A stretch of 63,782 nucleotides of DNA. Origin: Thermococcus sp. (GTDB lineage Archaea > Methanobacteriota_B > Thermococci > Thermococcales > Thermococcaceae). The stretch spans positions 1-63,782 of the forward strand of contig NZ_JALSLB010000025.1 of the NCBI RefSeq assembly GCF_026988555.1, written 5' to 3'. The position numbers and the translations under genes are program-made. The notes below the pieces were generated by a model. The model was given only the letters and a program-made list of their open reading frames with translations. It did not search any database and was not told the origin of the DNA. This document shows, one piece after another, positions 41,376 to 57,054 of the stretch; positions within the stretch are counted from its first letter, which is position 1, and each line of letters begins with the position of its first letter.

Positions 41376-41389
41376 TTAGGGCAACCTAA
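41376..41389 (-). promoter_or_regulatory. Operator TTAGG-N4-CCTAA at the ATPase pair
   Basis: Perfect palindrome (spacer GCAA on the plus strand). In minus orientation a TATA-like AATTTAAAAG at about 41394-41403 is immediately upstream, so the operator covers the region from TATA to the expected transcription start. Confidence 0.75.
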
Positions 41390-53642: not shown

Positions 53643-53719
53643 CTTTCTCACCAGGTTAATCTAAGATTGAAGTATTATAACCGTTACTGGAGGCGGAAAG
53701 CCTATAAAGTGGACCGTCG

Positions 53720-53733
53720 TTAGGATATCCGAT
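53720..53733 (+). promoter_or_regulatory. Degenerate operator just before the DUF134 gene
   Basis: TTAGG-ATAT-CCGAT: left half perfect, right half weak, between the TATA box CCTATAAAG (53701-53709) and the near-leaderless ATG at 53739. Fits autoregulation. Confidence 0.45.
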
Positions 53734-53738
53734 AAACT

Positions 53739-54095
53739 ATGCCGATGGGAATGGGACCTGGCAGGGGCCGTGGGAGGGGAAGGAGAAGGAAGCTGAGGAT
53801 GATAGGATTCGTCCCAGAGGTTAGACATTTCTATCCTGCGTTACCCCCGATGGGCCAGCCCAAGCCTCCGATTTTCATGACCTATGAGGAATTCGAAGCG
53901 CTCAGACTGGTCGACCATGAAGGCTTGACGCAGGAGGAGGCGGGAAAGAGGATGGGTGTCTCCAGAGGTACGGTGTGGAGGGCGCTGAGCTCAGCCAGAA
54001 AGAAGGTCGCCCAGATGCTGGTTGAGGGGAGGGAACTCATAATTTTACCCCAGGGAAACGAGGTCCCAAAAACCCCCGGCGAGGAAGAATTATAG
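53739..54095 (+). CDS. DUF134-family helix-turn-helix protein with Gly/Arg-rich start
   Basis: 118 residues. The first about 20 residues are PMGMGPGRGRGRGRRRK, then DUF134: FYPALPPMGQPKPPIFMTYE, VDHEGLTQEEAGKRMGVSRG and TVWRALSSARKKVAQML, a sigma-70-region-4-like HTH. The family is commonly linked with NifX-like genes. It lacks a ribosome binding site because transcription probably starts close to the ATG. Best candidate for the factor that reads TTAGG-N4-CCTAA sites. Confidence 0.85.
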   Translation: MPMGMGPGRGRGRGRRRKLRMIGFVPEVRHFYPALPPMGQPKPPIFMTYEEFEALRLVDHEGLTQEEAGKRMGVSRGTVWRALSSARKKVAQMLVEGRELIILPQGNEVPKTPGEEEL

Positions 54096-54170
54096 TTGGT
54101 TATTCCCTTAAAAGCCGTTCTTATTGTCGAATATTTGCCAATCCGGGTGTTCTCCTGCCGATTTATAGAT

Positions 54171-54184
54171 TTAGATTAACCTAA
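54171..54184 (+). promoter_or_regulatory. Orphan TATA plus operator (TTAGA-N4-CCTAA)
   Basis: One base off the palindrome. A TATA-like TTTATAGA lies just upstream (54162-54169), the same order as at the other operators, but no gene follows for 1.4 kb on the plus strand. Confidence 0.55.
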
Positions 54185-54420
54185 TTCACAACCCCATTTT
54201 ATCCCTCAAAGTTTCTAGTGGGTTTTAACTTTAATAGAAAGTTAACATAAAAAGTTTAGATTTTTTATTAAAATTACTAAAATATAAGTTTAAAAATTTT
54301 TAAATATTAATTCACTAATAAATAACATTAAATAAAAGTTTTAAATAATAAACTTATAATAGTAAAAAATCCAAAAAATTTACAATATCTGTTCGGAAAA
54401 AGTAGTAAAATGAACAGCTC
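54185..54420. other. Very AT-rich block, no gene seen
   Basis: About 230 bases composed mostly of A and T homopolymer-like runs, far below the window GC average. No ORF, RNA gene or clear repeat was found. Confidence 0.6.
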
Positions 54421-54445
54421 TGACGTGACAAGTGCAGTGAACCAG

Positions 54446-55320
54446 TTAAAAAAGAAAAAGAAGGGGGAGTCTATAATAACCATAATGATGAGAAAGTTCT
54501 GCTACAGCTAGTACGAACACCTGCGGGAGTGTTATTTTCTCGCCAGCTTCGAGCGTTATTGCTGTTATTGGACAAGCTTGAGAGACGTCCGAGAGAGACC
54601 AGCGTTCTCCACTAGATTCTCCCAGACATCCTTGCTGATACGTCATTGCAACTGGAGTTTCTATCTGCTGTCCATTCGTTTAAGGCAATTGCTCACCTCA
54701 TTATGGGATACACCGGTTTAAGACCTTAACAGCTGCAACGAATTACATAACGGATCTTTTGTTTGAGCGGGCACAGAAATGAGAGATTGGAGCAAACGCG
54801 GCGCTATATCAAGCTCATACTCGCTTGATAATGTATCTTAATGTACGTCGGTTTTGGATATAATGTACCTTATATCCAAAATTAAGGTACAACCATGTCC
54901 ATAGAAAGGACAGCTGGTACAGACATTCCGCCAGGTTCCCAGCGCTTGGGGTCTACCCCTCCGTACATTCCTAAATCGACACTAACCAGCGGATAGAGGT
55001 TTCCACCGTGATGGGAGTAACTCAAGACTCAAAACTATAAGGTTCCGCTGTCATTGGGCCCACTACTGCTTTATGAAGGACTTGATAAACCCGGGTCATG
55101 ATGCCAGGACTTCAGGGTTACATATATACCACCTTTAATTGTAACCGAATTTTGTTCCATGAAAGCCCGATCTCAGAATAAACTTTTAGCACTCTAAGAA
55201 GCTTAGATGATAACTCTCCCCTAAGGGTTCATGGGAGAGAAGGTACTGCCGTATAGGCAGAGTAGCACTTTTCTACGGGAAGGCGCCATCTCACCAGCAT
55301 GAACACTCCTGCACATCCGT
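54446..55320 (-). pseudogene. Decayed protein gene, probably a secreted protein
   Basis: The minus strand carries protein-like pieces in shifting frames separated by stops: IKGGIYVTLKSWHHDPG, then HHGGNLYPLVSVDLGMYGG and EPGGMSVPAVLSMDMVV, then YELDIAPRLLQSLISVPAQ, then GERWSLSDVSQACP and ITLEAGEKITLPQVFV near 54500-54570. None is an intact gene. Likely one inactivated gene of about 290 codons; the family is not recognised. Confidence 0.5.
54852..54881. repeat. Perfect 12-base inverted repeat
   Basis: Arms TTTTGGATATAA and TTATATCCAAAA around a 6-base loop TGTACC. A strong palindrome inside the decayed region. It may be an operator, or an insertion scar. Confidence 0.6.
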
Positions 55321-55339
55321 TCCCATTTATACTATGCCA

Positions 55340-55560
55340 AGTGGTCAAAAATCATCAAAATTTAATTTTTTAAATTGTAATTTATAACTAATAAATTTTA
55401 ATAACAAAAAGCAAATATTTAAAATATTAAAAATTGAACTGTGAATACAACGTGTTATTATAACTAAATTAAAAAGTAAAAATTTAGTAAAAAATTCGAG
55501 AGTCATTTGACATCATCAGGCCAAAAATTCAAAAAAGAGTATTGTGGCGTTAAATCAAAG
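55340..55560. other. Second AT-rich block, no gene seen
   Basis: About 220 bases of A/T-rich sequence mirroring the block at 54185-54420 on the other side of the decayed gene. No feature found within it. Confidence 0.6.
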
Positions 55561-55569
55561 AAAAAGGGA

Positions 55570-56925
55570 TTAAAACCCTTCTTTTCGTTCTTTTTCCTCT
55601 ATCCAGGCTATTATGTTTTCGACTATCCGAGGTGCCATGCCTATGTAGTTCTCCAGCTTCAGGCTTTCAAAGTCTTCCTCAGTTAAAAACTTTCTCACAT
55701 CTTTGTTTCCTATGGCAACGTCTATCAGGTCCCTGTTCTCTCTGAACGCCCTCATTGCCAGTCCTCTCACCAATTCATGCGCTTCCTGCCTTCCCATCCC
55801 TTTCTCCGTCAGCTTCAGCATCAGCGGTTCTGCCATGATGAGGTTGTGAGTCATGTAGAGGTTCCTCTTAATGTTTTCCGGGAAGAACTCCAGGCCTGAG
55901 AGAACCTTCTTCATGCTCTTGAGCATCTCGTCAAGCAGGACAAAGCTCTCAGGAAGGATAACGCGCTCGACAGAGGAGTTCGTCAGATCCCTCTCGTGCC
56001 AGAGGGGATTGTTGAGCAGTGCAGGAATGACGTTGGAGTAGAGAACCCTCGCTAAGCCGCTCACCTTTTCGCTCAGTATGGGGTTCCTCTTGTGGGGCAT
56101 TGTTGAAGAGCCCACCTGCCTCTTCCCAAAGGGCTCGCTGATTTCAAGTATCTCCGTCCTCTGGAGGTTCCTTATCTCCAGGGCAATCTTGTCAAGGGTC
56201 GAGGCGATGAGAGCCAAAACCATCATAAGCTCCGCATAGACATCGCGCTGGATTATCTGGTTGCTTATCCTGGCGGGTTTTAAGCCGAGGTCCTCCATGA
56301 CGAGGCGCTGTATCTCAAGCCCCTTACTCCCAAAGCTCGCCATAGTGCCGACGGCGCCGCTCATCTGGCCAACTAAGACTCTTTCCTTCAGCTCATCTAT
56401 TCTGTCCAAGTGCCTCTGTATCTCATCCAGCCATATCGCGAACTTCATGCCGTAGGTCGTTGGGACCGCGTGCTGACCATGGGTTCTTCCTATGCAGACG
56501 GTGTACTTGTGCTTCCCGGCGAGGTTCTTGAGGATCGAACGTATCTCCCTGAGGTCTTTCTTCACTATCTCCAGGCTCTCCTTTATGAGGAGGGCGTTGG
56601 CAGTGTCTATTATGTCATTGGAGGTGGCGCCGAGGTGGACGTATTTGCCGTGCTCGCCGCAGACCTCGCTAAGGGCCTTGACGACGGCCATTATGTCGTG
56701 GTGTATCTCGGCCTCTATCTCCTTGACACGCTCCACTTTGACCCACTTCGTGTTTGCTCTCTCGGAGATTACCCTTGCACTTTCCTCGGGAATGTTGCCC
56801 ACCTTCGCATGGGCCCTCGCGAGTGCAGCCTCAACGTCGAGGAGCTTCTGGAGCTTGTTCTCCTCATCCCAGATGCGCCTCATTTCCTCGCTCCCGTAGC
56901 GGTAGTCAATCGGATGAACGGCCAT
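55570..56925 (-). CDS. purB: Adenylosuccinate lyase
   Basis: 451 residues. Fumarase/aspartase-superfamily enzyme that cleaves adenylosuccinate and SAICAR in purine synthesis. The signature loop GSSTMPHKRNP, catalytic His in TSNDIIDTANAL/GRTHGQHA and the VHLGATSND motif are present. ATG at 56925 after GGTTGGTGATAAT. It acts in the step after PurA (34597-35616), but the two are not linked. Confidence 0.95.
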   Translation of the reverse strand: MAVHPIDYRYGSEEMRRIWDEENKLQKLLDVEAALARAHAKVGNIPEESARVISERANTKWVKVERVKEIEAEIHHDIMAVVKALSEVCGEHGKYVHLGATSNDIIDTANALLIKESLEIVKKDLREIRSILKNLAGKHKYTVCIGRTHGQHAVPTTYGMKFAIWLDEIQRHLDRIDELKERVLVGQMSGAVGTMASFGSKGLEIQRLVMEDLGLKPARISNQIIQRDVYAELMMVLALIASTLDKIALEIRNLQRTEILEISEPFGKRQVGSSTMPHKRNPILSEKVSGLARVLYSNVIPALLNNPLWHERDLTNSSVERVILPESFVLLDEMLKSMKKVLSGLEFFPENIKRNLYMTHNLIMAEPLMLKLTEKGMGRQEAHELVRGLAMRAFRENRDLIDVAIGNKDVRKFLTEEDFESLKLENYIGMAPRIVENIIAWIEEKERKEGF

Positions 56926-57054
56926 ATTATCACCAACCATATGGCAATTTCAGGACCTTAAAACCTTTCGCTTAACATGAATCTGTAGGACCAGGCGGCT
57001 GCATCGATTCCGTCATCGGAGCCACAAAGTGCTCAGAGAAAGCACGAAAGCGAC

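Follow-up and report, generated by a model that had tools for sequence, protein, structure and literature searches.

A conserved composite dif locus with facing border motifs and AT-rich belts as a candidate chromosome-domain boundary in Thermococcus

What occupies the 1.47 kb between two convergent Thermococcus genes in which no intact gene is found? The interval lies in a stretch of 63,782 nucleotides (below, the window), which is part of a 1.97-Mb Thermococcus-like draft genome of 68 contigs (G000). The original prediction for positions 54171-55560 was that a TATA box and an operator lead into an island that carries a decayed reverse-strand gene between two AT-rich blocks. The interval itself, the AT-rich blocks and the operator stood up to our analysis; the TATA box and the decayed gene did not. 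The central dif palindrome, the inward-facing border motifs and the conservation across the genus described below were absent from that prediction. As predicted, no intact gene is present between the stop codons of the two flanking genes (54095 and 55570):

53739 to 54095, plus strand: gene for what we take to be a DUF134-type HTH protein, pointing into the island and adjoining it in most loci of g1 (Thermococcus)
55570 to 56940, minus strand: presumably purB (adenylosuccinate lyase), pointing into the island and adjoining it in most g1 loci and in g5, a sister genus

When the interval was used as a query against relatives, the sharpest of the short blocks common to most Thermococcus genomes was TTTGGATATAATGTACCTTATATCCAAA at positions 54853-54880, a palindrome of two 11-bp arms around a 6-bp spacer. 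This block and its surroundings comprise the following features:

54853 to 54880, no strand: dif site of the form 11 + 6 + 11, TTTGGATATAA TGTACC TTATATCCAAA, located by pattern searches and a weight matrix
54829 to 54852, no strand: left inner flank of dif, an imperfect inverted repeat with 54881 to 54904
54881 to 54904, no strand: right inner flank of dif, an imperfect inverted repeat with 54829 to 54852

The weight matrix gave a score of 47.7 at this position, and the runner-up in the window scored -10.9. The block has the inverted 11-bp arms, the 6-bp spacer and the conserved ATATAA/TTATAT core of Thermococcales dif sites, and a pattern search of the 68-contig draft allowing up to 3 mismatches found a single copy. 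The two inner flanks agree as an inverted repeat at 12 of 24 positions in the window, and relatives are laid out similarly. G000 encodes a single tyrosine recombinase (PF00589), an intact protein of 281 amino acids whose gene lies on contig C35 and is not adjacent to dif. By similarity, we assign with high confidence the block at 54853-54880 as the dif site and the 281-residue protein as XerA. No clear switch of the TGGT/GTTG skew, examined as a sign of the replication terminus in which dif sites of Thermococcales lie, was seen along the window, the stretch of the 68-contig draft to which this analysis was confined. The accessible parts of Cortez et al. 2010 describe sites of the 11-6-11 form in Thermococcales, recombination of the P. 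abyssi dif site by P. abyssi XerA in vitro, and conserved AT-rich flanks of ~23 bp at dif (PMC2958812). As far as that text goes, the island resembles this Xer/dif system in its 28-bp site, present once per chromosome, in a XerA gene located elsewhere and perhaps in its imperfect inner flanks (PMC2958812).

The island extends well beyond dif and is two-fold symmetric about it. The AT-rich blocks noted earlier are real:

54155 to 54444, no strand: left AT-rich belt, GC about 0.16
55309 to 55547, no strand: right AT-rich belt, with 150-bp GC of at most 0.22

They are the only 150-bp stretches with a GC content of ≤0.22 in the 63.8-kb window. The window was compared with dif neighbourhoods of about 5 kb each, taken from 60 other genomes. 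When all of them are averaged together with the window, the mean GC profile is symmetric about dif: GC is about 0.45 in the largely non-coding interior and dips near 650 bp from dif on either side. Belts with GC ≤0.22 occur on both sides of dif in 42 of the 47 Thermococcus (g1) loci, compared to 3 of 92 control flanks. Between G000 and its nearest relative, G025, the belts diverge by 15 to 20% and the island interior by 4 to 14%; the belts conserve composition rather than sequence. In the left interior (54420-54866), most 40-bp bins are 92 to 100% identical to G025 (locus L130), the DUF134 gene being 89% identical, and seven one-base indels are found despite this high identity, which would reflect either a recent exchange of this half or constraint.

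Reading outward from dif, the island ends on both sides in a 32-bp motif with the consensus ATCTCTCAAATTTTTnGGTGAATTnTTACTTTT, and a belt of ~190 bp lies between dif and each of these border motifs. The pair of the window, with midpoints 650 bp to the left and 622 bp to the right of the dif centre, consists of weak matches of 16 to 17 bits to R2, a sequence-only model of the motif:

54201 to 54232, plus strand: left border motif, ATCCCTCAAAGTTTCTAGTGGGTTTTAACTTT, facing dif (R2, 16.8 bits, E = 5e-4 in the window)
55473 to 55502, minus strand: right border motif, facing dif (R2, 16.5 bits, E = 6e-4 in the window)

The mean over 83 borders shows a GC content of 0.16 to 0.19 just inside the border, which recovers after about 190 bp, the edge being sharp at the motif. 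With an iterated profile, the motif faced dif in all 78 matches across 72 loci. A search of 94 whole Thermococcaceae genomes with R2 (E ≤ 1e-3) gave 81 matches: 75 within 2.3 kb of dif, every one of them facing it, 1 at 2.7 kb, and 5 in drafts without a located dif. R2 and the element model R1 (below) were both trained on copies near dif, and the genomes scored are related, so that these matches are not independent of one another. In the genomes of genus g3, dif is present and both belts and border motifs are absent; the island is therefore not needed for dif as such. This genus is probably Pyrococcus, because its dif matches the P. abyssi type.

Between dif and one of the belts lies a further conserved block:

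55128 to 55185, plus strand: dif-side element of ~58 bp with the core ACYACCTTTAATYGTAAYC (model R1, 45 bits, E = 5e-13 in the window)

There is one copy in the window and there are one or two in relatives; most point outward, and in some purB-side half types the element points inward. Across the 94 genomes, R1 found 63 matches at E ≤ 1e-3, 62 of them within 1.3 kb of dif and the remaining one in a draft genome without a located dif. For G030, G057, G087, G088, G090, and G092, neither exact dif patterns nor the matches listed had placed dif; in these six genomes the element guided us to a nearby dif or a variant of it, for example TTGTCATATAAGGTACATTATATGACAA. No base pairs were predicted in the alignment of the element. 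Position, symmetry and motif statistics together strongly support the view that the island is a composite locus under selection. A copy of the element was also seen in L170 (G054, contig C51, position 4374), on a fragment with no recognisable dif; this could be due to the incomplete draft or to a moved copy.

We consider it probable that positions 54171-55570 form a composite dif locus whose borders and AT-rich belts insulate it as a boundary between chromosome domains. XerA would recombine dif and thereby resolve chromosome dimers, the border motifs would be putative sites of a sequence-specific protein, and the belts would nucleate a stiff chromatin filament, for which TrmBL2 is a candidate. 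Borders and belts would then bar transcription and moving SMC complexes from the dif core, and the island would serve as a domain boundary that lets the dif sites of sister chromosomes come together. G000 encodes both SMC and TrmB-family proteins. A study by Yamaura, Takemata and colleagues (Nature Communications, 2025) reportedly found that dif of T. kodakarensis is a domain boundary, that TrmBL2 stalls the SMC complex there and that DNA structure matters; if so, this boundary fits the AT belts of the island. To our knowledge, that study describes neither a sequence-specific inward border motif nor a genus-wide architecture. TrmBL2 is reported to form stiff filaments (PMC4877046), and how it is recruited is described as poorly understood (PMC11894787); these reports fit the reading of the island as an insulating boundary. 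Its binding is also described as largely non-sequence-specific (PMC4877046, PMC11894787), which counts against this reading, as do the weak border matches in the window and the lack of belts and borders in g3.

In archaea, chromosome dimers are resolved by XerA and FtsK is absent, and the control that acts in its place is an open question (PMC8371274). A conserved, directional structure on both sides of dif is a direct candidate for such control, and the island is likewise a candidate for the cis-acting code behind a boundary between chromosome domains. Since dif itself was already known, it is the surrounding architecture that appears to be new and mostly undescribed. Among the papers accessible to it, our literature search found no description of a border motif or of belts at dif. 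The border pair, the ~190-bp belts, the 58-bp element and the exchange of halves reported below are features of the island that the accessible parts of Cortez et al. 2010 do not contain (PMC2958812). Border motif and element are short, and each could be mutated separately in T. kodakarensis, a species open to genetic work; the motif also offers a bait with which to fish for the protein.

More tentatively, and with a lower probability than the insulated boundary has, a protein bound to the border on each side of dif might act together with the chromatin of the AT belts as a polar barrier to SMC complexes, transcription or replication forks, while XerA would swap half-islands, some of them with the A-B gene pair described below.

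The border motifs could also be no more than terminators of two convergent genes that end beside a plain dif, the rest being unconstrained spacer. They are T-rich, most of them lie 58 to 119 bp after a stop codon and read in the same sense as the gene, and 73 of 81 motifs come after the stop codon of a gene that points inward. The other 8 precede a gene that points outward and still face dif; the polarity of the motif therefore follows dif and not the neighbouring gene. Strong matches to the motif were moreover found nowhere else in the genomes, and the belts and the element are conserved as well, which makes the terminator reading improbable.

A directional pair that flanks dif and always faces it, whatever gene adjoins, could alternatively trap replication forks: the motifs would be polar fork barriers, and the forks would meet inside the island beside dif. 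Directional inward sites also flank the dif region in Tus/Ter of E. coli and RTP/terminator of B. subtilis. In Tus/Ter-type systems the forks are arrested with polarity by a bound protein, and the inward motifs of the island would be putative sites of such arrest. In a 2026 study of T. kodakarensis, the strand switch by which site-specific termination would show itself was not seen opposite oriC, and archaea are stated there to be without Tus/Ter (PMC13136892). As the trap would in addition span only about 1.3 kb, we regard it as unlikely.

To return to the composite dif locus, each side of dif was also compared separately, and the half-islands sort into types. For the DUF134-side types T7 and T2 and the purB-side types T5 and T3, all four combinations exist: T7-T5 in the window, G025, G019, and G051, T7-T3 in G033, T2-T5 in G058 and G059, and T2-T3 in G026. 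Between G026 and G027, identity is 95% both in purB and in the half on its side, 83% in the DUF134 gene and 42% in the DUF134-side half, which is thus unrelated. Sequence identity between species changes at dif, and the outer dif arm tends to match the half type, as in the case of TTATAGGAAAA, which was found in 5 of 5 T8 halves. These comparisons indicate that half-islands are swapped between species with a breakpoint at dif. The swapped halves are best read as the products of XerA crossovers at dif with foreign DNA, completed by a homologous exchange within the flanking genes. Just this pattern of half types would be expected if XerA made one crossover at dif and the other, a homologous one, fell in the flank. 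Homologous recombination alone, with a breakpoint inside dif, is a viable alternative. The locus also shows dif as a site at which DNA passes between related species one half at a time.

Some relatives carry genes close to dif. A gene pair, A-B, begins there in about 6 of the 94 genomes (G027, G030, G031, G073, G087, and G088), at the following loci:

L132 (2538 to 3702), L135, L161, L168, L172, and L189 (2280 to 3381): A-B gene pair

In some relatives the cassette starts about 24 bp from dif, in some it is decayed, and further relatives have B alone or fragments of the pair. In several A-B loci, the ~58-bp element is located at or near the stop codon of B. A profile search with the dif-linked proteins found neither A nor B in the window. 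Protein A has about 240 to 270 residues with an invariant D-x10-E-x-K, and protein B about 104 to 145. No Pfam family scored above threshold for either, A giving only sub-threshold matches to DpnII-MboI and Gemini_AL3. A search for PDB sequence matches to protein A found none, and its single-sequence fold was uninformative, with a pLDDT of 35. The invariant D-x10-E-x-K by itself suggests that A might be a PD-(D/E)XK nuclease. Variants of dif in which one or both arms end in TTATATGACAA were found in G030 (L168), G057 (L169), G027 (L132), G077 (L164), and G080 (L165) and at L191 and L192, and this ending is usually on the side of dif that has, or once had, gene A or B.

Such genes raise the possibility that the island is what is left of a mostly decayed mobile element that carried dif, A, and B, the border motifs being its terminal inverted repeats. 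The border pair does have the inverted ends of a transposon or MITE, A-B cassettes lie near dif in relatives, some of them decayed, and half-islands are swapped between species. However, strong border matches occur at one place per genome, around dif, and neither in multiple copies nor at varying addresses; the address between DUF134 and purB is the same in most of g1; and the borders persist where A and B are absent. Protein A has no relatives in plasmids or phages, neither A nor B has any in viral contigs, and no second high-scoring dif was found in the scanned loci. Like IMEX, the island can have foreign genes beside dif, and its dif arms differ according to the DNA joined to them. IMEX are bounded by two dif/att sites, whereas nearly all genomes analysed here have one dif, and the island differs from them further in its fixed chromosomal address and in a gene A that lacks phage or plasmid relatives. 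We therefore give a mobile remnant only a small chance.

Just outside the left border of the composite dif locus lies the operator that had drawn attention to the region:

54171 to 54184, no strand: palindromic operator, exact TTAGATTAACCTAA, outside the left border of the island

This part of the original prediction proved correct, the palindrome being both enriched and conserved. With up to 3 mismatches, TTAGATTAACCTAA has 11 matches in the window against 2.9 expected; of the strict form TTAGGN4CCTAA there are 10 copies in the genome, whereas the reversed control has 1. In 34 loci, TTAGGN4CCTAA is located on the DUF134 side, 14 to 18 bp beyond the border. The distance from the DUF134 stop codon to the operator is mostly 74 to 77 bp in more than 30 loci, with an intervening sequence that cannot be aligned between distant species. 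Of about 35 loci that were aligned, the window and G025 alone showed the putative TATA box just before the operator, TTTATAGA.

The decayed reverse-strand gene could not be upheld: the longest open reading frame has 66 amino acids, and the comparison of 54400-54850 with G025 revealed no coding pattern. In this comparison there are 7 one-base indels, and changes are distributed over the three codon positions as 7/5/8; in the DUF134 gene, 36 of 40 changes between the same two genomes are in third positions. A six-frame reading gave no support to such a gene either, and no similarity to the dif-linked genes of relatives was found. No Rfam match was obtained at E ≤ 1 over 53700-56000.

It is true that no regulon gene follows the operator, and the same lack is seen in more than 30 Thermococcus genomes. 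A check of sister genomes for an intact gene, which had been proposed, thus found none after the operator in these genomes, although some relatives do have intact or decaying genes at this spot. The suggestion that the island replaced the regulon gene is wrong, because the island is an old, conserved dif locus. It is very improbable that a promoter under this operator directs transcription into an island with a decayed gene or yields an untranslated RNA, for although the operator is real and conserved, there is no conserved TATA box, no coding pattern, no Rfam match and no base pairing in the element, and a related operator in g5 serves a gene that reads the other way.

In g5, the palindrome is located 40 to 41 bp outside the border, before a gene for what we take to be a MinD-like ATPase, which reads away from dif. 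That the operator was left behind by a regulon gene is therefore plausible, but this gene would have been on the other side than assumed; the operator at 54171 may be a leftover of a g5-like MinD arrangement. Its retention throughout the genus suggests that it is still working. In G000, the palindrome is also found before a gene for a MinD-like ATPase, near the start of a radical-SAM gene and before a NifX-like gene, these product names being our own assumption. Sites were seen at 41376, 42380, 49891, and 54171 in the window, with more in the rest of G000 (loci L193 to L202). They may define a TTAGGN4CCTAA regulon of MinD-like ATPases, a radical-SAM gene and NifX-like genes, with the DUF134 protein as its candidate regulator.
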